Positions 186-16,229 of a stretch of DNA of 16,229 nt are shown here, piece by piece; the first letter of the stretch is position 1; each line of letters starts with the position of its first letter. The notes beneath the pieces are model-generated. The model was given only the letters and a program-made list of their open reading frames with translations, made no database searches and was not told the DNA's origin. Both the position numbers and the translations under genes were made by a program. This DNA comes from Mageeibacillus sp. UBA1243 (GTDB lineage Bacteria > Bacillota > Clostridia > UBA1212), in contig DBWH01000009.1 in assembly GCA_002308595.1 (NCBI GenBank), positions 1-16,229 on the forward strand. The letters are read 5' to 3'.

Positions 186-980
186 TTATGCTGCAGCAGG
201 TTCGTTGATTTTCCTTAAATGGTATTTGTGAAGATTAAAACCGCAGGAAATCATTCCGATCTCTAATTGTTCATAATGCCTTTGTTCAGTTGTTTTTCTT
301 TTTCCGCTCCCTCGAACGAACTTTGCAGTATCAATATTCAACAGATCTTTATACTGCGCTCGAATTTCCTCGAGATATTCTATTGTGTATTCTTGTCTGA
401 TACCAAACTTGACCCCATAGCAAAGAATGCTTTCATTTATTGTGTTTAGCAGGGATGTAACTTTCATGAAAGTCTTATCTCTATTCTTTAGACTGCTTTT
501 CTTCCACACCCAGCTATACTTGTTTGCATTTGCTGAAATCTTGGTGCCATCAATATATGCATGATTCAAGTCTACGGATTCAACATCGAAAATGTATGCA
601 TTAATATCCTTGAGAATATCCTCTATGGAATTTGCAAGACAAAAATTCATGAAATTATCAATTGTCATATGACTTGGGGCCTTCATATCCTGAAGAAGCC
701 ACATGAAACGGATATCTGTCTTGCAGAGTTTTTCTATTGCTCTCGTAGATGTGTAACCGTTCTCCATGAAGGCAAAGAGTATAACTTTGAGTAGAGTAAG
801 TGAATCATATCTTGGGCGGCCTGTATTGCTTCTTTCATTTACAATATACCTGTTTAGGTCTATATGATTCATTACTTCACAGAAAGTATACACTGAATCG
901 GTAGTTTCGATAATTGCTGAAAGTTCTAATGGCAATTTCAGTTGATATGGTGTATCATAGGTCTGTGATAGTTTATTCAT
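186..980 (-). pseudogene. IS1182-family transposase with internal deletion
   Basis: The 264-residue product begins like an IS1182/DUF772 transposase: GRPRYDSLTLLKVILFAF (about 54-71) is the N-terminal domain. AYIDGTKISANANKYSWVWKK (about 141-161) carries the first catalytic aspartate, D144. After HYEQLE (about 235-240) the reading frame jumps directly to IGMISCGFNLHKYHLRK, which resembles the extreme C-terminus of full-length family members. From family knowledge, the region carrying the second Asp and the catalytic Glu should lie between these two points; here it is absent. Full-length relatives run to roughly 450-550 residues. The deletion keeps the frame, and the junction lies near base 260. 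The protein cannot be a working transposase by itself, though it could still bind the ends or be moved in trans. TATAAT lies about 10 bases upstream of the ATG; no good Shine-Dalgarno is visible. Confidence 0.8.
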
Positions 981-6814: not shown

Positions 6815-6865
6815 GCTCCTGCCGGGCAGCACTTGTTTGCAAAACCAGGCAGGAGCTATTTTTTA
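6815..6865 (+). terminator. rho-independent terminator of the deacetylase-tsa-rimI operon
   Basis: GCTCCTGCC (6815-6823) pairs perfectly with GGCAGGAGC (6848-6856), followed by TATTTTTTT. It lies about 30 bases after the last stop of the plus-strand operon and abuts the stop of the convergent glycoside-hydrolase-like gene. On the minus strand the sequence after the stem is moderately T-rich, so it may serve both genes. Confidence 0.85.
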
Positions 6866-9436
6866 AAGTGTAAGCCATTTGACGGGACCCAGGAGTCCGC
6901 TCCTCGGTATCGCGAGGTACTGGGTGAAGGGGTCGCGGACCGCATTGGCGAGTGTGTTTGAAACCTCGATTACAATCTCGTTGGCGCCTTTTTTGAGCGC
7001 ATCCGACAGGTCGTAGCGGTAAGGGTTGCAGACCCTGACGCCAAGGTCACAGCCGTTCACCCAAACGTGCGCCGTCATTCCGACCTCGCCAAGGTCAACC
7101 GCACTCGCACCGCAAAGTTCCTTCAGATCAAACTTCGCTGTGTACCTGAATTTGCCTGAAAATTCGACAAATCTATCGTCTGAAGAGAGCTTCGGGAGCT
7201 TTTCGCAGGGAACTGCCTTGGCGTAAGGCTCGAATGAATCCATTGCCGTGTAGGGGGCAAGCGAAACGTCGAACTTCAGCTTTGCATCGGCTGCAGCCTT
7301 GACGGTTTTGCGCTCTTTAAGACCTTCGGGGAGACCGCCTTTGTCGAATATGATTATGCAGGACTGATACGGGAGGAGTTCGAGAGTTATCGTGCCGTTT
7401 TCGGACGTGCCTTTCCACATCCCGTCGTTAAGCATGTCAAGCACTGCGTACGGTCGGCTGCCTTTTACGGAAGAGAGCTTCACGGTTGTGCTTACGGCCT
7501 CTCTCACCGACTCGTTTGAGAACATGTATACATCGGAAGTTTTGTCGTAGAAGTGAATCGCGCGGAGCGTCTTATACGTTCCTTTAACCGTGATGTCCTT
7601 TCTGATGAGCGACCTGACTTCTTTGAGGAAAGCCTTTTTGTCAAAGTCTTTCGCAACCCTTACGACTTTCACACCTTCTGCCTCAAGCGATCTGAGCGCT
7701 TTTTCGAATTTCTTCGGGAGATATTCTGCGTAGGGAATGACAAGAACGTCGTACGTTTCATTGCCGCAGGCGAGCTTCCCGTTTGAGGCAGAGGCCCTGA
7801 AGACGCGGCTTCCGGTGCCTGAGATGAAGCAGTCAACGGGCAGGATGTCAAAGTCGATCTGGTCGTCGTAGAGGACCTTGGCGGGTTCCTGGAGCATCAT
7901 CGCGCCGCCCTCGAAGTTCATCCATTCGGCGTCTGCGTGGTAGAGTATCGCCGCGTTGGCTTTGTGCGTCATGCCGCTCAGGAGGTGCGCCGCGCGGTTT
8001 GTGTAGTTCATGATCTTCGTAAAGCCATCAAACTGCGGATCCTTGTCGTCGGCGCCGAAGTGGGGAGGGCAGTCGGGGTCGGGAAAGTCGGGCGAGAACG
8101 CGTGCGGAATGAACCTGTTGACGCCCCTCACGAGCAGAAAATCAATCAGCCATTTCATCATAGGCGTGCCCTCGGCCCAGCCGTAAGCTCCGAAAACCTC
8201 GCACATGGCCCGGCCGTCCATCTGGGTGCCTATGTGGGCAAGCGAGGCCGCAAGTTTCCCTAAAACTACGTCATAAAACTCAGGGTCAGCATTGCTTCCG
8301 AAAGCCCATCCGGTGTGGATGTAGTCGTACATGCCCGGAATAATCTGGTGGAGAACGATGTCGATACCGCTCATATGCTGCCCGTCAAGTGACCTGAAGT
8401 AGTGTCCGCCCGCCGCCGAAAGCCTCGCGTGAGCATTCATGTCCTCTATGATGTGGCCGATGTACTGCACGCCGTGCGCCTCGCACCAGTCTCCGAGCTG
8501 CCTTGTAAAGCAGTCCCTGTAAAGCTTTGTCACCGTGTCCATGTACGCGTGGCGGACCGCAGGCGTCTTATCGCCAATGTCAAACCAGAGTCCCGCAAGG
8601 TACGGCAGCGCGTTCTTCCCGAAGCCGATCTTCATAAGCTCCGGCACGTCGCTCCTGAAGGGCAGGGCAAGCCCCGGCTGTCCGACTCTGTGGTTGTAAA
8701 AGCCAAGGTCAACGGTATGCTGGCCGAACCACGCATTGCCGAGACAGGGCTCGTCCGAGAAGAATCCCGCGAGCGTCTTTCCGAATTCATCCTTGTAATG
8801 CTCAAAATGCGGCTGATAAACTGTATCGACAAGAAGCTTCACCGACTCAGGGTTCAGCATGTCAATATAATCCGGGCGCACGAAGCTGCGCGTCGTCTCG
8901 TAATAGTAAAAGACCCTCCAGCAGCCCTCCGGAATGTCAAAACGCAGAAAATCGCCGCGCACGCAGCCCGAAAGGTCGATCGGATTGCCGAAAGTTGCCT
9001 CCTTAACACCCGTCCTCTTGAAGGCGAACACGCCAAGGAGCACATCCCCACCGTGTTTCTCAATCCGCAGAAGCGAATTGGCGGCAGGTCCGAGCACGTC
9101 AATGTGCTGCTCGATAAGAAACCTCTGCCTAAGCTCCGGATGGTCTTTTACACTGCCCGCCGCGTGTCCCGTCGGATAGTGGTCGTCGTCAAAAATCCAG
9201 ACCTTCATCCCGCGTTTTTTCGCCTCGCTGATAATAAGATCCATATCGTACCACCAGCCGTCTTTGCAAAAGTCTTTGTGAGTCCTTGATTCGACGCAGA
9301 AAGCCCTGCACCCGCTCCTGTAGATGCGCTCAATCTGCTCCGGTATTTTGTCGTGGTGGTTTCCGTGCTGCCAGTAAAACGGCAGGAGGTAATTGTCCTC
9401 TTTTCCTTTTAAAACTTCATCCAGCCTTCTGTTCAT
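6863..9436 (-). CDS. glycoside-hydrolase-like protein (GH106/GH2-like)
   Basis: This 857-residue protein has no signal peptide or membrane segment, so it is probably cytoplasmic. The N-terminal half looks like a TIM barrel of the large glycosyl-hydrolase group related to GH106: LPFYWQHGNHHDKIPEQI (18-35), then KVWIFDDDHYPTGHAAG (78-94), resembling 'DE..WPSG.aGG', then a candidate acidic active site in AGFFSDEPCLGN. The C-terminal 110 residues form a galactose-binding-like jelly roll: VDLGEVGMTAHVWVNGCDLG, then NPYRYDLSDALKKGANEI, as in GH2 and rhamnosidase proteins. It most likely acts on imported plant or host oligosaccharides, but I cannot name the sugar. The ATG at 9436 has AAGGAG 6 bases upstream. 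It stands alone, with its own promoter, and converges on the tsa operon. Confidence 0.7.
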   Translation of the reverse strand: MNRRLDEVLKGKEDNYLLPFYWQHGNHHDKIPEQIERIYRSGCRAFCVESRTHKDFCKDGWWYDMDLIISEAKKRGMKVWIFDDDHYPTGHAAGSVKDHPELRQRFLIEQHIDVLGPAANSLLRIEKHGGDVLLGVFAFKRTGVKEATFGNPIDLSGCVRGDFLRFDIPEGCWRVFYYYETTRSFVRPDYIDMLNPESVKLLVDTVYQPHFEHYKDEFGKTLAGFFSDEPCLGNAWFGQHTVDLGFYNHRVGQPGLALPFRSDVPELMKIGFGKNALPYLAGLWFDIGDKTPAVRHAYMDTVTKLYRDCFTRQLGDWCEAHGVQYIGHIIEDMNAHARLSAAGGHYFRSLDGQHMSGIDIVLHQIIPGMYDYIHTGWAFGSNADPEFYDVVLGKLAASLAHIGTQMDGRAMCEVFGAYGWAEGTPMMKWLIDFLLVRGVNRFIPHAFSPDFPDPDCPPHFGADDKDPQFDGFTKIMNYTNRAAHLLSGMTHKANAAILYHADAEWMNFEGGAMMLQEPAKVLYDDQIDFDILPVDCFISGTGSRVFRASASNGKLACGNETYDVLVIPYAEYLPKKFEKALRSLEAEGVKVVRVAKDFDKKAFLKEVRSLIRKDITVKGTYKTLRAIHFYDKTSDVYMFSNESVREAVSTTVKLSSVKGSRPYAVLDMLNDGMWKGTSENGTITLELLPYQSCIIIFDKGGLPEGLKERKTVKAAADAKLKFDVSLAPYTAMDSFEPYAKAVPCEKLPKLSSDDRFVEFSGKFRYTAKFDLKELCGASAVDLGEVGMTAHVWVNGCDLGVRVCNPYRYDLSDALKKGANEIVIEVSNTLANAVRDPFTQYLAIPRSGLLGPVKWLTL

Positions 9437-9501
9437 AAAAATCTCCTTGCGCTGTCTTAAGGTCTTTGAGAAATAACCAATAAGCCAATCTATGATTTTT
9501 A

Positions 9502-9530
9502 ATTATACAATTAACCGGGGCTGCTTACAA
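9502..9530 (-). promoter_or_regulatory. promoter of the glycoside-hydrolase-like gene
   Basis: On the minus strand TTGTAA (9525-9530) is followed after exactly 17 bases by a perfect TATAAT (9502-9507), about 65 bases upstream of the start codon. The leader holds no obvious operator or riboswitch. Confidence 0.65.
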
Positions 9531-9534
9531 TCGA

Positions 9535-9574
9535 TAAAAATTAAAAGTGCCGGAGCAGACTTTCAGGCTCCGGC
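9535..9574 (-). terminator. terminator of the adhE-hydrogenase operon
   Basis: GCCGGAGC (9549-9556) and GCTCCGGC (9567-9574) form a perfect 8-bp stem with a 10-base loop. On the minus strand the stem is followed by ACTTTTAATTTTTATC. It lies about 57 bases after the hydrogenase stop and just before the promoter of the next minus-strand gene. Confidence 0.75.
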
Positions 9575-9630
9575 GCGCTGTGTTAAACTGGTGTTTTAAA
9601 GCGGGTGTGTATTTCTGTTATACGTTACAA

Positions 9631-11058
9631 CTATTTCAAAAACGACGTTGCATCGGCAATGGTCTTCTCCAAGGCCTCCCTGCCGTACTTGTCGACTTCG
9701 GCCTTGTTCTTTTCGCCGTGGGTGAGGCACCCTGCGCCTCCTATGCAGCCGCCGATGCAGGCCATGCCTTCGATGAAATTGGCGTCAAGCACGTTCTTTC
9801 TCTTTTTGAGGAGGGCGATGCGGCACTCTTCGATACCGTCGCACGCGATCGGCTTGAGGTCAAAGTCGATGTTCTGCTCCTTGAGGCCCTCGGCAATGGC
9901 ATCTGAGAGTCCTCCCGAGCGGGCGAAGATCCTTCCGAAGTAGGAAGCGTTTTCGAGAACGTCCTCGGGGAGGGTTGTGATGTCGATGTCCTTGCTGTCA
10001 AAAAGCGCCTGGAGCTCTTCGAAGGTGATGACAGAGTCAACGTAGGGCTTCACTGTTTCGAGCTGAACCTCGGCTTTTTTTGCGGTGCAGGGACCGATGA
10101 AAATGACCTTGGCGGTGGGGTCGTTCGCTTTGATGTACCTTGCAACGGTTGCCATAGGCGACAGGTTGTGTGAGACGAGCGGCAGAAGATCCGGAAACGC
10201 GGACTTTATGTACTGTACGAATGCGGGGCAGCAGGAGCTTGTCAGGAAGCCCTTTTCCGCAAGCTCTTTTGACTCGGCCTGGGCGACCATGTCAGCGCCG
10301 AGAGCGGCTTCGATAACCGTGAAAAAGCCAAGGTCTTTGAGGCCAGTGACGACCTGACCGAGCTTTGCGTACACAAACTGGCTCGAAATTGACGGAGCGA
10401 CGACGGCGTACACCTTGTACTCTTTGTTCTGTTCGCTCTTTTTGATCATGTCGATGACGTCAAGGATAAACGACTTGTCCATGATGGCGCCAAAGGGGCA
10501 CTGGTAGACGCACGCGCCGCACTGGATGCACTTGCTGTTGTCGATCGTGGAGGCTCCGTCGTCGTTGATGGAGATCGCATTGACCTTGCAGGCAATCTGG
10601 CAGGGGCGCTTGCGGTTTATAATGGCTGAGTAGGGGCAGACCTTCGCGCACTGGCCGCACTCGACGCATTTTGACTTGTCAATGTGGGCAACGTGATTGT
10701 GGTCGAAAGATATAGCTCCGCGCTTGCAGACGTCCTCGCACCTGTGGGCAAGGCATCCGCGGCACGAATCCGTGACCTCGTAACCGGCCGCAGGGCACTC
10801 GTCGCAGGCGATGTCTATCACCTGGATCACGTTGGAGTTTTCACTGTCGCCGCCCATCGCAATCTTGACGCGCTCGCTGAGGATCGCGCGCTCTTTATAA
10901 ACGCAGCAGCGCATTGTCGGTGTCTTCCCCGGCACGATCATTTTCGGAATATCGAAAACATTCTGAAGGAGGGTGTCATTCCAGGCCTGACGCGCGACCT
11001 CGCGCAGAACTTTGTATTTAAGATGCTGTACTTTGGTGTCAAAAATCCTTACGCCCAT
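9631..11058 (-). CDS. [FeFe] hydrogenase, group-B-like catalytic protein
   Basis: This 475-residue protein has an N-terminal ferredoxin-like region rich in cysteines: C85, C88, C99, C102, C107, C111, then CVECGQCAKVCP (131-142), C153/C157, and CIQCGACVYQCP (177-188), enough for about three or four [4Fe-4S] clusters. The H-cluster domain has all three loops: L1 TSSCCPAF (C276, C277), L2 GPCTAKKAE (C324) and L3 EGMACIGGCIGGAG (C434, C438). The cluster ligands are all present, as is the preceding cysteine that relays protons in characterised enzymes, so it should make or oxidise hydrogen. Architecture and L1/L2 sequence fit the group B enzymes of Clostridia. It has AAGGAG eight bases upstream, lies 12 bases after the phosphatase gene and is last in the operon. 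No hydEFG maturation genes are in the window. Confidence 0.85.
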   Translation of the reverse strand: MGVRIFDTKVQHLKYKVLREVARQAWNDTLLQNVFDIPKMIVPGKTPTMRCCVYKERAILSERVKIAMGGDSENSNVIQVIDIACDECPAAGYEVTDSCRGCLAHRCEDVCKRGAISFDHNHVAHIDKSKCVECGQCAKVCPYSAIINRKRPCQIACKVNAISINDDGASTIDNSKCIQCGACVYQCPFGAIMDKSFILDVIDMIKKSEQNKEYKVYAVVAPSISSQFVYAKLGQVVTGLKDLGFFTVIEAALGADMVAQAESKELAEKGFLTSSCCPAFVQYIKSAFPDLLPLVSHNLSPMATVARYIKANDPTAKVIFIGPCTAKKAEVQLETVKPYVDSVITFEELQALFDSKDIDITTLPEDVLENASYFGRIFARSGGLSDAIAEGLKEQNIDFDLKPIACDGIEECRIALLKKRKNVLDANFIEGMACIGGCIGGAGCLTHGEKNKAEVDKYGREALEKTIADATSFLK

Positions 11059-11070
11059 GGCATAATCTCC

Positions 11071-12243
11071 TTAGAAATAACTTACTTTGATTCTTTTTCC
11101 CATCTTCCTGAGGCACTCGGAGAGCTCCTCGACCAGGTTCATCTTGATGTTGAAGGTGATCGGCAGATCGGGGTTCTGGTGAGCGGGGTTCACGGCTCTT
11201 CCCACGTAGAAGTTTATGTCGGTGGCTTCTTCGAAGAGAAGGCGGCTGATGAGAGACGCGCCGTCGCGCTGGAAGCTCCATTTTTCGTAAAGCTCGTTTT
11301 TGTCAAGCGCGTCCTTGGCGTATTCAAGAACCTGGTTCACCGTGATGACGCCTTCCGTCACGAGGTCTACGCCTTCGATCTCGGCAATGGGCGGAACGTC
11401 GCTCTTTTCAAAATTCAGGCTCGCCTTGAGGGGCTTGCCAAGGTATTTCGCGGCAATGGAAGACGTTGTTCCGCCGCATATGATGTGCTTTCCTTCCTTT
11501 GAGAAGAAGAGGGACATCATTCTGTCGCAGTCGTCGCGGTTGCGCGGCGGCCCGAAAAGTATGTTCATCGGCTCTCTCTTGCGGACCTTGACGACGCATG
11601 CAGTCGCGTCATCGCCGGGGTGAAAGCCGTACTCTTTGTTGCACTGGTCGACGAGCATCGTCGCGAGCGTCTTGGCGGTATATCCTGCCGACGCCATCGT
11701 CTGCATGAAGGATGCGATGTCCTCGAGTTTCCAGCCGAAGTTGTATGCGAGGCCTATTCCGGCGTGCGGGCAGCCGTCGCTCATCGCGATCATGAAGTCG
11801 TCCTCCTGGAGACTTATGACCGATTTTAACATTTTCTTGCCGTCAACGTTAAGCTCCGTCTTCGGGTAGTCGTACACCTCGTAGTTGCGCAGAAAAATGA
11901 CCTCCGGGTTGTCGTACTGGATGATCTCGACCGTCCTGTTTTCGATAATGTGAAGGATGGTGAAGGTCGAATAGGCAACGCCTCTCACGGAGCATATCGG
12001 GAGCGTCGCGGCAATCGTCGAAACGCAGTCCTCAAGCTTCAGCCCCTCTGCCATCATGGTTGAGATGATTTTTGAGGTGAGGGTGGAGAGAATGCTCGCC
12101 TTGACGCCGCTGCCGAGCCCGTCGGCAAGCACAATGACCTGTGAGTTTTCACCTTGATTTACGATATCAACGTGATCGCCGCACAGCTGCTCGCCTTCGT
12201 GGTTTATGCTTTTCCAGCCGATTTCAGCGCACAGGTTATTCAT
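11071..12243 (-). CDS. SpoIIE-family PP2C protein phosphatase with extra C-terminal domain
   Basis: The first ~220 residues of this 390-residue protein are a SpoIIE/PP2C phosphatase: GDHVDI (22-27), VLADGLGSGVKAS (38-50) with metal-binding D41, AMSDGCPHAG (153-162) with D156, and HPGDDATACVV (208-218). All metal-binding aspartates are present, so an active Mn- or Mg-dependent Ser/Thr phosphatase is expected. Residues ~226-390 form a second domain, starting near NILFGPPRNRDDCD and HIICGGTTSSIAAKYLGK, that I do not recognise. The gene overlaps the 3' end of the sensory hydrogenase by 8 bases (ATGAATAA), with AAGGAG 10 bases upstream, so the two are translationally coupled. The known association of PP2C phosphatases with HydS suggests it relays the HydS signal. 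No anti-anti-sigma factor gene is in view. Confidence 0.85.
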   Translation of the reverse strand: MNNLCAEIGWKSINHEGEQLCGDHVDIVNQGENSQVIVLADGLGSGVKASILSTLTSKIISTMMAEGLKLEDCVSTIAATLPICSVRGVAYSTFTILHIIENRTVEIIQYDNPEVIFLRNYEVYDYPKTELNVDGKKMLKSVISLQEDDFMIAMSDGCPHAGIGLAYNFGWKLEDIASFMQTMASAGYTAKTLATMLVDQCNKEYGFHPGDDATACVVKVRKREPMNILFGPPRNRDDCDRMMSLFFSKEGKHIICGGTTSSIAAKYLGKPLKASLNFEKSDVPPIAEIEGVDLVTEGVITVNQVLEYAKDALDKNELYEKWSFQRDGASLISRLLFEEATDINFYVGRAVNPAHQNPDLPITFNIKMNLVEELSECLRKMGKRIKVSYF

Positions 12244-13909
12244 TGGTGATTGACTCCTTAAGCTTCGTCAGAGCTATCTTTGTCTCCGCCGCGGTCTCTC
12301 CGAGCAGGGACGCAATCTCCTGCACAATCCTCATCTGGCGGTCCACAACGTTATCCGCAATCTCAATCGTCTGCTTGCTTATCTCCTCTTTCCTCTCACG
12401 TTGCGTCTCCTCTTCGGTCACGTCGCGGAAAATCCCGAGGATGAGGTGATACTCCTTGTCGTACACAATCGTCTTTTCAACGTACTTCTCGTACTCGGCA
12501 AGGTATTCGCGCTTGTCCCTGATGACCCTTCCTTTGTTAAGAACGGTGACAAAATCCGTAGGGTCGAGCACTCTGATCACCTGATCGCCAAGGATATCGC
12601 CCGCGCTGCGCAGGTTGAATATCTTAAGCGCAGCGCTGTTGACCTGCTGAACCTCCATCTTCTCGTTGAGCACAACGAGGCCGTTCGGCGTGTTGCGCGC
12701 GATCGTGTCTGAGAAGTTCTCGGCCTTGTCCTTGAGGTAGGGCAGGCACATCGAAATCTCGGCCTTGCCCTGCAGTATTGCAATCGCTTTTTCGCGGCAC
12801 GTATTGTAGCCGCATGTGCCGCAGTTCAGCTCGTCCGACGGCTTCATCTTGCCCATCTGGCGAAGCGTCTCCGTTATTTCGGCCTCTGTCGGTTTGATGG
12901 CGCGCAGGTCAATCGCCTCAAAGTGCTTCTCTATGTCGCGCGCCGCAGGCTGCTTAACGTCAAAGTCTTTCTTGCCGGCGTAGTCCGATACCGCTATATA
13001 GTCTTTTACGGGTGAACGGTGGAATTTTTCCATGACAGGGCCGCCGACGCAGCTTCCGACGCACGCGGACATCTCGATAAAGCAGCGGTGCAGATTGCCC
13101 GCTTCAATGTCCTTAAGAGCCGCTATGCAGTTTTCGGTTCCGTCGATTGCGAGGTAGCTGTACTTCGGATTCTCTTTGACCATCGTCTTCAGTATGCCGC
13201 CCGTCGTGGGGAAGAATCTTGCGAGACTGTTCTCGTTTGACTCCTTCTTCTGCTCAAGCTCAATTTTATCCGACTTGAGCCATGCCGTCAACTCGTCAAA
13301 CGTCAGCACGGCGTCGACAATGCCCTCGTAGTGCTGCGCCTCGTCCTTCTTGGCGACACAGGGACCGATGAATACGGTCTTGGCGTCAGGTATGCGCTTT
13401 TTGATGTCTGAGCAGTGGGCCTGCATTGGCGACATCACGTCGGCAAGGTACGGGAGCAGTGACGGGAAGTACTTCTGGATAAGGAGGTTCACGGAGTGGC
13501 AGCAGGATGAAATGATAATGTCCCGCGTTTCTTCGCTGAGCATGCGGTCGTATTCTCTTTTAACGATCGTCGCGCCTACAGCGGTCTCCTCAACGTCCGA
13601 AAAGCCGAGCTTCTTTAAAGCTTCGCGCATCGATTCGATTCCGACGCCGTCGTAGTTTGCGACGAAAGAGGGCGCGAGACTTACGACAACAGGACCGCCG
13701 CTCTGGAGGAGCATTTTGACCTTCTCCATTTCGCTGACGATCTGCTTGGCGTCCTGAGGACAGACAACAAAGCACTGGCCGCACATGATGCATTCATTGC
13801 CGATAATATATGCCTGATTCCCTGAAAAGCGTATGGACTTTACAGGGCAGTGGCGAATGCATTTGTAGCAGTTCTTGCAGTTTGTTTTCTTAAGCGTGAG
13901 ACATTCCAT
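12236..13909 (-). CDS. hydS: sensory [FeFe] hydrogenase with PAS domain (HydS type)
   Basis: The domains of this 557-residue protein run: two [4Fe-4S] motifs (C11/C14/C17/C21 and C40/C43/C46/C50); an H-cluster domain with L1 SSCCHSVN (C136/C137), L2 GPCVAKKDE (C184) and L3 SACVGSCVGG (C283/C287); a C363-x2-C366-x4-C371-x16-C388 iron-sulfur motif; a PAS domain (about 398-500); and a helical, charged tail (500-557) that could dimerise. This is the architecture of group C sensory hydrogenases, which sense H2 or redox state and signal rather than turn over at high rate. L1 has His instead of the usual Pro, yet keeps both adjacent cysteines. There is no kinase domain, so output probably passes to the overlapping SpoIIE phosphatase. 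It starts 4 bases after the ferredoxin gene; the Shine-Dalgarno is GAAAGGG. Confidence 0.88.
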   Translation of the reverse strand: MECLTLKKTNCKNCYKCIRHCPVKSIRFSGNQAYIIGNECIMCGQCFVVCPQDAKQIVSEMEKVKMLLQSGGPVVVSLAPSFVANYDGVGIESMREALKKLGFSDVEETAVGATIVKREYDRMLSEETRDIIISSCCHSVNLLIQKYFPSLLPYLADVMSPMQAHCSDIKKRIPDAKTVFIGPCVAKKDEAQHYEGIVDAVLTFDELTAWLKSDKIELEQKKESNENSLARFFPTTGGILKTMVKENPKYSYLAIDGTENCIAALKDIEAGNLHRCFIEMSACVGSCVGGPVMEKFHRSPVKDYIAVSDYAGKKDFDVKQPAARDIEKHFEAIDLRAIKPTEAEITETLRQMGKMKPSDELNCGTCGYNTCREKAIAILQGKAEISMCLPYLKDKAENFSDTIARNTPNGLVVLNEKMEVQQVNSAALKIFNLRSAGDILGDQVIRVLDPTDFVTVLNKGRVIRDKREYLAEYEKYVEKTIVYDKEYHLILGIFRDVTEEETQRERKEEISKQTIEIADNVVDRQMRIVQEIASLLGETAAETKIALTKLKESITNE

Positions 13910-13913
13910 TTAG

Positions 13914-14174
13914 TTATACCCTTTCTTGCTCTAAGGATTTTATAACCTTGTCATTAAAGAATGAGTCAAAGTTTTCGGGTGTTATGCCCGTGAAAACGTC
14001 GTCGTTGACGGTTACCGTCACACCTATACGGTTGCACTGGCCGGTGCAGAAGCTCCCGGCCAATGTTATTTCATCTTCAAGTTTACGCTGCGCGATTGCC
14101 TTCTGAAACAGTTCGACGAGCTTTTCGGACCCCTTCAGGTGGCAGGACGAGCCCACACAAATCTGAATTATCAT
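13914..14174 (-). CDS. thioredoxin-like [2Fe-2S] ferredoxin, second copy
   Basis: This 86-residue protein has the four cysteines of the NuoE/HydA-type thioredoxin-like ferredoxin fold: C6-x4-C11 in ICVGSSCHLKG and C43-x3-C47 in GSFCTGQC. These bind one [2Fe-2S] cluster. Such small domains usually pass electrons between NADH- or ferredoxin-linked modules and hydrogenases. Here the likely partners are the two hydrogenase proteins downstream. It starts one base after the upstream paralogue stops, with AAGGTG as Shine-Dalgarno. It is clearly related to that paralogue but diverged, and lacks the extra Cys52. Confidence 0.85.
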   Translation of the reverse strand: MIIQICVGSSCHLKGSEKLVELFQKAIAQRKLEDEITLAGSFCTGQCNRIGVTVTVNDDVFTGITPENFDSFFNDKVIKSLEQERV

Positions 14175-14175
14175 A

Positions 14176-14418
14176 TCATTTCACCTTCGGCAGGACGGCC
14201 GTCTCGAAGAACTCGCCGACGCTCTCGGGCGATACCGAATGAAACTCGTCGTCAACGGACACGCAGACTCCCTGCTGGCAATTCTTCATGCAGAATGTTC
14301 CCGCAAGCTCAACCTTATCGCCAAGGTTATTCTCTCTAATCAGGTACTGGAGCTGCTCAACAACCTGTCTCGAACCTTTGATGTGGCAGGAACTGCCGAT
14401 ACATACTGTGATTTTCAT
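14176..14418 (-). CDS. thioredoxin-like [2Fe-2S] ferredoxin, first copy
   Basis: This 80-residue protein has C6-x4-C11 (VCIGSSCHIKG) and C43-x3-C47 (GTFCMKNC), the ligands for one [2Fe-2S] cluster in the thioredoxin-like ferredoxin fold, plus an additional Cys52. The start at 14418 is chosen because GGGAGG lies about 7 bases upstream and the protein then matches the next gene from residue 1. A longer in-frame start at 14466 would run through that Shine-Dalgarno and into the kinase-like gene. It follows the kinase-like gene by 20 bases and probably serves as electron carrier for the hydrogenase proteins encoded downstream. Confidence 0.85.
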   Translation of the reverse strand: MKITVCIGSSCHIKGSRQVVEQLQYLIRENNLGDKVELAGTFCMKNCQQGVCVSVDDEFHSVSPESVGEFFETAVLPKVK

Positions 14419-14438
14419 AGTAATCCTCCCGATTGTGT

Positions 14439-15188
14439 TTATTCGTAATCTACAACGTCTACCCAAGAGAGCAGGAACTCGCGTTCTTTTTCATTGCTTT
14501 TAACCGACTGCGACGCGGCAACGATAGGCATCCACTTCTGGACGTACTGTTTGGCGGTACCGCTCTTCTCGCAGAACATGTCAAGGTATTTGTCCGCGCC
14601 GTCGATGTCGCCGTTCAGCCAGAACAGCAGGTACGTGCGGGCGATGTCGGCCGAGGCGTTGCCCTGTGTGGCGTGCGACCAGTCGAGAATGAAGGGCGTG
14701 CCGTCCTCCGCGATGATGATGTTGGAGGGGTTGAAGTCGCCGTGGCAGACCTTGTCGTGCTTAGGCATACCCTCAAGGCGTGTGTGAAGGTCGTAGCGCG
14801 TGCGCTCGTCGATGTTTGCCTGGCTTATCTTCCGGTTCATCTTGTCCTGCAGCTTGTTGAGAAGAGGGCACTTCTTTGCGTGCACCGAAATCTGCAGATT
14901 GACAAGAAGCTCAAGATACTCGTCCTTCTTTTCCGGGTTCTCCTCCATGAGCTGGGCAAGGGTCTTTCCCTTGATGTATTCGGAGACTATTGCCCATTTC
15001 CCGTCGATGGTCGTAACTTCGAGAATTCTCGGAATGTTGAGGCCTGTCTCTTCAATCCTTGCCTGGTTTAAAGCTTCGTTGAGAACGTCGGCTTTGGAAT
15101 AATCCTCATTAAATACTTTAACACATCTTTCGCCGTCGCGGTAGATGGTTTTATTATTTCTCACGGCAATTACTCTGTCAAGTTTCAT
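14439..15188 (-). CDS. aminoglycoside-phosphotransferase-fold kinase (APH/choline kinase-like)
   Basis: This 249-residue protein has the APH-type kinase core: nucleotide-binding lysine in CVKVF (K24), the hinge-like EYIKGKTLAQL (70-80), the catalytic loop CHGDFNPSNII (H149, D151, N156) and the metal aspartate in FILDWSHA (D169). All catalytic residues are kept, so it should phosphorylate something; members act on small molecules, sugars, lipids or proteins. There is no sign that it is an antibiotic-resistance gene. It begins 12 bases after the adhE stop, with a perfect AAGGAGG. Its place between adhE and the sensory hydrogenase genes suggests a regulatory or metabolic role in that system; this is inference. 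Confidence 0.8.
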   Translation of the reverse strand: MKLDRVIAVRNNKTIYRDGERCVKVFNEDYSKADVLNEALNQARIEETGLNIPRILEVTTIDGKWAIVSEYIKGKTLAQLMEENPEKKDEYLELLVNLQISVHAKKCPLLNKLQDKMNRKISQANIDERTRYDLHTRLEGMPKHDKVCHGDFNPSNIIIAEDGTPFILDWSHATQGNASADIARTYLLFWLNGDIDGADKYLDMFCEKSGTAKQYVQKWMPIVAASQSVKSNEKEREFLLSWVDVVDYE

Positions 15189-15200
15189 TTTTCGGCCTCC

Positions 15201-16229
15201 TTAAGCTTTTTTGCCCTTGCGGTAGATCGCTTTGACCGCGTCAACCTCAACTGTTTCGATGTCTGCGGCTGTGGGTTTCTCCGTTTCTTTAAACGTTCTT
15301 CCGTAGTACGCGTTGAGATACATCTGCTTGATCTCGCTCATGAGGGGGTACCTCGGGTTGGCGCCTGTGCACTGGTCATCGAACGCCTGCTCAACCATAT
15401 CGTCAAGCCTTGCGAGGAAGTCCTGCTCGTCAACGTTGTAATCCTTGATGGTGGGTTTGATACCGACTCTTGCTTTGAGGTCGTCGATCGCCTTGATGAG
15501 GTTCTCAAGACTCTCTGTGTCGTTCTTGCCGCCAAGGCCGAGGCTTTCCGCAACATCCGCGTACCTTCTCAGTGTGTGCGGGTGATCGTACTGCGGGAAC
15601 GTGCCCATCTTGGCGGGTACTTCTGCAGCGTTGAAGCGGAGAACTTCATCGATGAGGAGCGCATTGGCGATACCGTGCGGGAGGTGATGGAACGCGCCGA
15701 GCTTGTGAGCCATCGAGTGGCACACGCCAAGGAAAGCGTTCGCGAAAGCCATACCTGCCATCGTTGCGGCATTGGCCATTTTCTCCCTTGCCTCGACGTC
15801 CTGCTGACCGTTGTCGTAAGCCCTCGGGAGGTACTTGAAGATGGTCTGAAGGGCCTGCTTGGCGAGACCGTCGGTGTAGTCCGTGGCCATCATGGAAGCG
15901 TATGCCTCGAGTGCGTGGGTCACCGCGTCGATACCCGAAGCAGCTGTGAGACCGCGGGGAGCGCTCATGTGGAAGTCTGTGTCAATTATCGCCATTTTAG
16001 GCAAAAGCTCGTAGTCTGCGAGGGGGTATTTGACGCCCGTCTTCTCGTCGGTGATGACCGCAAAAGGTGTCACTTCGGAGCCTGTGCCTGCGGAAGTCGG
16101 GATGGCGATGAAGTATGCCTTCTCACCCATCTTAGGGAACGTGTAGACTCTCTTGCGGATGTCCATGAAGCGCATTGCCATGTCCATGAAGTCTGCCTCG
16201 GGATGCTCGTAGAGAACCCACATGATCTT
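15201..16229 (-). CDS. adhE: AdhE C-terminal alcohol dehydrogenase domain (5' truncated by window)
   Basis: The frame stays open to the window edge, where codons for Lys-Ile precede MWVLYEHPEADF. This is the interior of bifunctional acetaldehyde/alcohol dehydrogenase AdhE, not a start. Visible are GTGSEVTPFAVITDE, the iron ligands Asp and His in GIDAVTHALEAY, and two more ligand histidines in CHSMAHKLGAFHHLPHG. NPRYPLMSEIKQMYLNAYYG near the C-terminus is typical of AdhE rather than single-domain Fe-ADHs. The domain reduces acetaldehyde to ethanol with NADH; the acetyl-CoA-reducing N-terminal domain and the operon promoter must lie to the right. It appears to be the first gene visible of the hydrogenase operon, 12 bases before the kinase-like gene. 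Confidence 0.92.
   Translation of the reverse strand, partial: KIMWVLYEHPEADFMDMAMRFMDIRKRVYTFPKMGEKAYFIAIPTSAGTGSEVTPFAVITDEKTGVKYPLADYELLPKMAIIDTDFHMSAPRGLTAASGIDAVTHALEAYASMMATDYTDGLAKQALQTIFKYLPRAYDNGQQDVEAREKMANAATMAGMAFANAFLGVCHSMAHKLGAFHHLPHGIANALLIDEVLRFNAAEVPAKMGTFPQYDHPHTLRRYADVAESLGLGGKNDTESLENLIKAIDDLKARVGIKPTIKDYNVDEQDFLARLDDMVEQAFDDQCTGANPRYPLMSEIKQMYLNAYYGRTFKETEKPTAADIETVEVDAVKAIYRKGKKA

Follow-up and report, generated by a model that had tools for sequence, protein, structure and literature searches.

A probable adhE-kinase-hydS operon of Mageeibacillus sp. UBA1243 and a kinase that appears to accompany AdhE

Seven minus-strand genes of Mageeibacillus sp. UBA1243 probably form an operon of the H2/redox-responsive kind known from Ruminococcus albus 7, with the layout (rex-)adhE-kinase-fd-fd-hydS-pp2c-hydrogenase. 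Gene neighbourhoods across the class suggest that its kinase is tied to the ethanol-making enzyme and not to the sensor, and this is the new part of the analysis. The cluster itself is already known, and the available text of the HydS literature cited here names no protein on which the putative H2 sensor would act. Whether electrons go to ethanol or to hydrogen affects the amount of H2 that methanogens receive from fermenters in gut and rumen, and also the ethanol yield of engineered fermenters.

The window analysed here is the whole of a 16,229-nucleotide contig (C28), end to end; therefore adhE is truncated at position 16229 and the start of the operon falls outside, as does the operon's own promoter. 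A preliminary description of this DNA had reported seven minus-strand genes with spacings of -8 to +20 bases, and all seven frames were indeed present. As listed in Table 1, the end of adhE is followed by genes for an APH-fold kinase, two [2Fe-2S] proteins, HydS, a SpoIIE/PP2C phosphatase and a group B [FeFe] hydrogenase, with junctions of 12, 20, 1, 4, -8 and 12 nt in that order and an AGGAG-like ribosome site at most of them. The adhE, kinase, hydS, phosphatase and hydrogenase genes thus make up one tight same-strand cluster in the window. In L002, a relative of the same genus, rex lies 14 nt before adhE, giving an eight-gene unit.

Table 1. Features of the operon and its 3' end in the 16,229-nucleotide window.
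Feature	Position	Strand	Basis
adhE, bifunctional acetaldehyde/alcohol dehydrogenase	15201..16229	-	last 342 residues only; PRK13805
APH/RIO-fold kinase, 249 aa	14439..15188	-	PF01636 and catalytic motifs
thioredoxin-like [2Fe-2S] protein a, 80 aa	14176..14418	-	PF01257; Cys 6/11/43/47
thioredoxin-like [2Fe-2S] protein b, 86 aa	13914..14174	-	PF01257; Cys 6/11/43/47
HydS	12236..13909	-	PF02906, PF04060, cysteines; PAS_8 just under cut-off
SpoIIE-type PP2C serine phosphatase, 390 aa	11071..12243	-	PF07228
group B monomeric [FeFe] hydrogenase, 475 aa	9631..11058	-	TIGR04105; motif cysteines 277/324/434/438
terminator-like stem-loop, then T-rich tail, 3' of hydrogenase gene	9545..9574	-	-17 kcal/mol for the 30-base stretch

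A candidate for the single closing terminator proposed earlier was also found, as a stem-loop with a T-rich tail past the last gene, at about 9574-9545; a mechanical terminator scan passed over it because its loop is longer than the scan allows. That scan did mark weak terminator-like minus-strand sites inside the operon at 11065-11049 and 10730-10717, and a mechanical promoter scan marked one promoter-like site (11 of 12 matches) at 15181-15153, within the start of the kinase gene. Over positions 9000-16229 on both strands, 14 terminator-like sites were counted versus 8.8 +/- 3.1 in shuffled sequence, and five promoter-like sites versus 3.5 +/- 2.0. Promoter-like sites were no commoner than in shuffles, and an internal promoter in the start of the kinase gene, or an internal terminator, may still be present.

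A lack of recurrence in related genomes had been named as an outcome that would speak against the proposal. We found all seven genes in order at 55 of the 80 species loci nearest by kinase, and an arrangement confined to this contig was ruled out. Of the remaining 25 loci, 16 are cut short by the end of the available sequence, HydS is absent from four (L018, L021, L029 and L068), the second [2Fe-2S] gene has no match in two (L055 and L062), and adhE is just a 320-residue fragment in L060 and missing from L080. Gene counts over the 80 loci allow cross-matches between the two hydrogenases, as in L052, which looks like a broken assembly.

The closest described system is the hydS-hydA2-aad unit of R. 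albus 7, which likewise contains AdhE, HydS (there with a PAS domain), a phosphatase and a hydrogenase in the available account (PMC6776011), and a kinase beside HydS as cited in PMC5707799. Its hydrogenase is called group A1 in that account (PMC6776011), whereas the hydrogenase here is of group B. The R. albus cluster is given there as eight genes with AdhE, a ferredoxin-only hydrogenase and HydS; it was described as co-transcribed, was 111-fold down in low-H2 co-culture, and H2 sensing was proposed (PMC6776011). In Thermoanaerobacterium, the hfsABCD genes similarly encode HfsB (a hydrogenase with a PAS domain), a phosphatase-like HfsC and an [FeFe] hydrogenase, HfsD (PMC5707799, PMC11837493). 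There, unlike here, adhE lies elsewhere and has predicted Rex sites of its own (PMC5886521), and the four hfs genes, as the accessible passages describe them, include no kinase (PMC5707799, PMC11837493). Deleting hfsA or hfsB (the homologue of hydS) raised the adhE transcript two- and threefold (PMC5707799), and the hfsB work links HydS to adhE expression and to NADH-ADH, not NADH-ALDH, activity (PMC5707799).

These comparisons bear on what had been thought novel. The joining of the sensor genes to adhE and to a kinase had been singled out as the standout feature, yet on the available accounts it was already in print for R. albus 7 (PMC6776011, PMC5707799). A switch connecting HydS and the phosphatase with ethanol and hydrogen as electron sinks had also been suggested: the functional link is backed by the recurrence and by published work, but the idea is not new, given the R. 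albus 7 cluster with its 111-fold change (PMC6776011) and the rise of adhE transcript on hfs deletion in Thermoanaerobacterium (PMC5707799). H2 sensing, any phosphorylation and the direction in which the switch works are what we infer. As regards sign, loss of HydS raises adhE transcript and ethanol in Thermoanaerobacterium (the hfsB deletion; PMC5707799, PMC11837493), in contrast to the R. albus operon, which in the accounts at hand is most expressed during ethanol making.

We surveyed 292 genomes of the class for the kinase, this adhE family and HydS. All survey counts are lower bounds, as in many genomes the scoring covered a subset of the initial candidates (for example four per genome, or up to seven in another scan). 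The kinase gave at least 71 rows, probably 70 genes since the G042 kinase is split in two rows, and 59 of these follow adhE within 600 nt. Among the matches listed, 44 of the 59 have no HydS close downstream; four of the 44 (G100, G224, G285 and G034) have less than 1.5 kb of contig downstream, and G068 has HydS upstream instead. By genome, again among the matches listed, 63 of the 66 with the kinase have this adhE family and 31 have HydS. The kinase stands beside adhE in at least 57 genomes with 24 family codes, 34 of them without a HydS match. One genome, G015, was tallied as having HydS only, but its locus (L102) shows the end of adhE directly before the kinase, so the true HydS-only survey loci number four.

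Viewed from the sensor, the survey comprised 92 HydS places in 90 genomes; the two in G042 may be halves of a single gene broken between contigs. These counts exclude ten matches that span no more than about residues 4-436 and lie in reading frames of 757-919 aa; with them included, the genomes numbered 96. A survey of hydS neighbourhoods for adhE and APH-like genes had been proposed, and it did recover the association: a same-strand adhE lies within 7 kb at 21 of the 92 places among the matches listed. Fourteen of the 21 have adhE-kinase upstream and one has the adhE-kinase pair downstream, while a second AdhE family lies upstream in two and downstream in four. At 70 of the 92 there is no listed adhE within 7 kb, and HydS is therefore not a dedicated AdhE sensor.

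On a tree of AdhE, the kinase-plus-HydS label must change 13 times, and starred branches force 10 of those changes; the tree is of a quick kind with less reliable stars and four long rows, it omits the adhE fragment of G015, and G000 is represented by the partial AdhE of the window. Because most kinase rows follow adhE, the majority of those do so without HydS, and the label changes this often on the tree, the kinase looks like a long-standing partner of AdhE, one which HydS modules have repeatedly joined or left, as judged from gene content and order. The kinase had been placed with the HydS relay in the preliminary description; the survey ties it to adhE instead. Since a single kinase family neighbours a single AdhE family whether or not the sensor is present, AdhE or its regulators become the first candidates for phosphorylation.

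In the mechanism that we propose, a build-up of NADH and H2 would cause Rex to leave the promoter and the operon to be made, its output being the ethanol route through AdhE plus a further hydrogenase. HydS would bind H2 at its H-cluster, and its state would pass via the C-terminal Fe-S/PAS part to the PP2C phosphatase. The phosphatase and the APH-fold kinase would then set opposite phosphorylation states on a shared target.

The place of Rex was assessed in the relatives. The L002 protein matched the Rex equivalog at 239.8 bits (cut-off 130), and rex lies directly before adhE at 25 of the 57 loci with a readable adhE start. A Rex-operator-like site, defined as at least 11 of the 14 fixed positions of TTGTTAANNNNTTAACAA matched, was found before the first gene in 41 of the 57 relatives examined; no site of at least 11 matches was found before the operon in the other 16, including L002 and L013-L016. 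Altogether 57 such sites fell in the 1.1 kb before adhE (at 46 of the 57 loci) versus 95 across the remaining 841 kb. Zheng et al. (2014, J Bacteriol) are said to have described Rex in the R. albus 7 unit; the window ends inside adhE, and its genus-mate L002 has rex. In T. saccharolyticum, Rex sites are predicted before adhE and before hfsABCD (PMC5886521).

A regulator such as Rex or a LysR-type protein is the main alternative to AdhE as the shared target. It is quite possible, if short of probable, that the kinase-phosphatase pair targets a transcription factor (Rex or the LysR-type protein encoded upstream) or some unlinked regulator, AdhE being simply co-transcribed. Transcriptional control is what the R. 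albus authors proposed in the text available (PMC6776011; Zheng et al. as cited in PMC5707799). A lysR-type gene lies at most 3 kb upstream in 44 of the 57 loci, a share to be set beside that of rex, and one adjoins the kinase in L080 and L093 despite the missing adhE. The persistence of the kinase beside adhE in so many genomes and families, often without HydS, argues against a regulator as target, in a survey whose scoring left out rex and lysR.

It is also conceivable, although unlikely, that the protein is an APH or choline-kinase-like enzyme acting on a metabolite, perhaps to repair or salvage a by-product of AdhE, and is unrelated to the HydS-PP2C signal. The kinase scored 56.5 bits against PF01636 (cut-off 23.2), with the expected catalytic motifs (K24, HGDFNPSN at 149-156 and D169), including the HxDxxxxN / D pattern, and fell below the cut-off for classical Ser/Thr protein kinases (PF00069, 21.8 versus 31.7 bits). 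An APH(3') aminoglycoside resistance enzyme was considered and rejected (NCBIfam APH_3p, 35.8 bits versus a cut-off of 205).

We favour AdhE itself as the target, with low confidence, because the kinase accompanies adhE both where HydS is present and where it is not. Just as tentatively, the protein would be a dedicated AdhE kinase, an old and widespread partner of one AdhE family in the class, and would switch the enzyme by phosphorylation, perhaps at its ADH half or in its filament state. In lineages such as this one it would have been joined by HydS-PP2C, so that dissolved H2, through a cycle of kinase and phosphatase, would control ethanol output by acting on the enzyme itself. Among the points against the overall reading of the operon, only two of six genomes of the genus carry the unit; the kinase also occurs with HydS but without adhE in some loci (L080, L088, L093, L106 and L107), which again speaks against HydS as a dedicated AdhE sensor. 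That the neighbourhood reflects descent and transfer, with no functional HydS-AdhE coupling, fits the many HydS places lacking a listed adhE nearby but is very improbable given the repeated label changes on the AdhE tree, the involvement of two AdhE families and several gene orders, and the altered adhE expression on deletion of a hydS homologue in another genus, as available accounts have it (PMC5707799).

The remaining proteins were identified by profile and motif. The AdhE end in the window covers positions 558-871 of 872 of PRK13805 (509 bits, NCBIfam), the ADH part only, and the complete L002 AdhE of 899 aa scored 1399.5 bits (cut-off 951). The hydrogenase scored 574.1 bits against TIGR04105 for group B (cut-off 450) and was not group A by profile (TIGR02512, 152 bits, cut-off 406). 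The phosphatase, whose gene overlaps hydS by 8 nt, has the PPM fold with its metal-binding aspartates, and continues past about residue 225 with a part of unassigned family. PP2C adjoins HydS in most rows of the HydS-locus comparison, in which L151, L154 and L155 were not resolved by the simple frame caller.

HydS scored 177 bits against PF02906 and 41.6 against PF04060, and contains an H-cluster domain with predicted ligand cysteines, two [4Fe-4S] motifs and a C-terminal Fe-S motif. Its PAS_8 score was 20.5 bits, under the cut-off of 21.8. PF13426 or PF00989 is among the precomputed domains of some listed relatives. As in Thermotoga maritima HydS, in the portion of the description available, Gly and Ser occupy the positions of CpI M353 and M497 (here G182 and S281, by motif), whereas the proton-relay position is Cys here (C136) and Ala in TmHydS (PMC10055695).

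The window spans the whole of contig C28, from a draft genome of 1.82 Mb that is 77% complete. The preliminary description had read seven tight minus-strand genes closed by a terminator. This reading held: the junctions run from -8 to 20 nt (in order 12, 20, 1, 4, -8 and 12 nt), and downstream of the hydrogenase gene comes a stem-loop whose tail is rich in T. A promoter-like site is predicted within the first part of the kinase gene, and the unit also has predicted weak sites that resemble terminators. Residue inspection of the window proteins located the kinase motifs, the aspartates of the phosphatase, and the motif cysteines in both hydrogenases and both [2Fe-2S] proteins; what each residue does we take from family knowledge. 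Elsewhere in the genome, contig C51 encodes another [FeFe] hydrogenase, the third, which is 598 aa long. At its C-terminus, AdhE carries a tail of ~30 residues past the AdhE family model, often with a YRKGKKA-like end, and this tail is common to many, not all, AdhE proteins of this operon type.

Positions of features in the window and in the same-genus relative L002
Feature	Sequence	Positions	Strand	Remark
Operon	window	16229 to 9631	minus	in order: adhE end, APH-fold kinase, two small [2Fe-2S] proteins, HydS, SpoIIE-type phosphatase, group B [FeFe] hydrogenase
adhE, last 342 codons	window	from 16229	minus	open at contig end
AdhE C-terminal tail	window	15201-15300	minus	
Phosphatase C-terminal part	window	11071-11570	minus	residues about 225-390
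Promoter-like site	window	9530-9502		before the 857 aa protein gene
857 aa protein	window	6863-9436	minus	
Transposase-like open frame (presumed)	window	186-980	minus	near other contig end
lysR-type gene	L002	1739-2713		

Recurrence of the arrangement in relatives was confirmed: all seven genes were present in order at 55 of 80 species loci selected on the similarity of their kinases, and 16 of the 25 others run out of sequence. At four loci (L018, L021, L029, L068) adhE and the kinase gene are adjacent, and the sequence available downstream, 2.7 to 10 kb, contains no HydS. Because the 80-locus set is biased toward the kinase, we also took 292 genomes sampled evenly across the class. HydS, counted without its long fused type, occurred in at least 90 of these genomes (92 places), the kinase in at least 66, and AdhE-I, the AdhE family of the operon (at least 62% identity over the aligned part), in at least 92. 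Within the genus, two of six genomes (the window's own and G005) had kinase and HydS orthologues; kinase, HydS and AdhE-I were all absent from G001-G004, and two genomes of the same family (G007, G008) had AdhE-I without kinase or HydS, some of these drafts being incomplete.

In this survey the kinase was tied to adhE. AdhE-I was found in 63 of 66 genomes with the kinase versus 29 of 226 without it (Fisher p 3e-37), and HydS in 31 of 66 versus 59 of 226 (p 0.002), shared descent being ignored in both tests. Among 71 kinase rows, 44 lay no more than 600 nt from adhE and lacked HydS within 1.5 kb, a call that is uncertain for four of them because the contig ends close by; 15 had both neighbors, seven had neither, and five had HydS only, one of which (G015) really has an adhE end in front of the kinase (L102). 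A rereading of the DNA behind each AdhE-I gene gave the kinase at 57 of 95 places and matched the survey tables throughout. An adhE with the kinase beside it occurs in 57 genomes from 24 family codes; 34 of these genomes lack a HydS match. When the kinase label was mapped onto a quick tree with 96 AdhE rows, it required 12 changes versus a shuffle mean of 30.1 (none of 500 shuffles as low), and rows without the kinase were far more clustered than in shuffles. The kinase-plus-HydS group behaved much like shuffled labels, with 13 changes versus 14.2 (79 of 500 as low); 10 were forced by starred branches, the stars of such a tree being less reliable, gain and loss counting alike, and some absences perhaps being draft gaps. 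Given these linkage counts and label changes, adhE and the kinase look, from sequence comparison, like long-standing partners, with HydS modules attaching to them or leaving them on many occasions.

Other layouts were also seen. Among the matches listed, adhE lay within 7 kb of HydS on the same strand at 21 of 92 places and on the opposite strand at one. The adhE-kinase pair was upstream, as in the window, at 14 of the 21, and downstream of the hydrogenase at one (G068, L140). A further AdhE family, at about 52% identity, lies by HydS without the kinase, either upstream (G235, G045) or downstream (G057, G081, G105, G141). The same family is joined to HydS and the phosphatase, again without the kinase and on either side, at L130, L131, L132, L148, L113 and L114. 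Kinase and HydS occur without adhE at four survey loci (L088, L093, L106, L107) and at L080; at L080 and L093 a lysR-type gene directly precedes the kinase.

As the window's adhE is cut by the contig end, relatives were read for the operon front. In L002, whose coordinates coincide with those of G005 of the window's genus, a lysR-type gene comes first, followed by rex, adhE (899 aa), the kinase gene, the two [2Fe-2S] genes, and the genes for HydS, phosphatase and group B hydrogenase; 14 nt separate rex and adhE. The adhE start could be read at 57 named-record loci; rex directly preceded adhE at 25 of them, and a lysR-type gene lay within 3 kb upstream of adhE or rex at 44; because this gene precedes the operon so often, a LysR-type regulator may be a second controller. 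A Rex-operator-like palindrome, counted when at least 11 of 14 positions matched, was predicted before the first operon gene at 41 loci. Over all 57 loci, 57 predicted sites lay in the 1.1 kb before adhE versus 95 in the other 841 kb. L002 had no more than a degenerate site, matching 10 of 14, and 15 further loci, among them L013-L016, had no site at this threshold.

Control of the operon may have two layers. Rex would set its transcription by NADH/NAD+, and HydS-PP2C together with the kinase would set a phosphorylation state by H2. The strongly conserved C-terminal part of the phosphatase, without a Pfam match, could be the receiver of the HydS signal. Published work on R. albus 7 describes an eight-gene counterpart cluster that dropped 111-fold when the bacterium was grown together with an H2 consumer; ethanol was then 0.3 mM versus 8.7 mM (PMC6776011). 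In Thermoanaerobacterium, adhE transcript is reported to be up two- and threefold in strains deleted for hfsA or for hfsB, hfsB being the hydS homologue; NADH-ADH activity rose and NADH-ALDH did not, and the authors suggested extra post-transcriptional control (PMC5707799). In T. saccharolyticum, Rex sites are predicted before adhE and before hfsABCD (PMC5886521). In the portions of the literature examined, no direct demonstration of H2 sensing or phosphate transfer by a HydS system was found. As the kinase is constantly beside adhE, AdhE is the first candidate target. By predicted structure (pLDDT 83), the kinase is most similar to APH enzymes, and PRPK-type and choline kinases follow closely; its substrate may thus be a protein, and a small molecule is a serious rival.

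The preliminary description had singled out the joining of the HydS module to adhE and an APH-fold kinase; the arrangement is real and is not new, as the R. albus unit has the same core of adhE, HydS, phosphatase, kinase and second hydrogenase. A 2014 abstract on R. albus reportedly describes a single transcriptional unit with Aad, kinase, phosphatase and Rex. The window operon is thus another example of the R. albus type, differing in its group B hydrogenase where group A1 is said for R. albus. Among the literature matches listed, none described the adhE-kinase pairing as independent of HydS. Group B enzymes are reported to drive most gut H2 production, and sensory hydrogenase roles in the gut are said there to need more study (PMC12578642).

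Beyond the stem-loop, 194 nt past the hydrogenase gene, starts a gene whose 857 aa product matches a glycosylhydrolase-like jelly-roll close to the C-terminus. The open frame near the other contig end we take, by eye, to be transposase-like. A partial copy of the 857 aa protein, 90% identical, follows the operon in L002.
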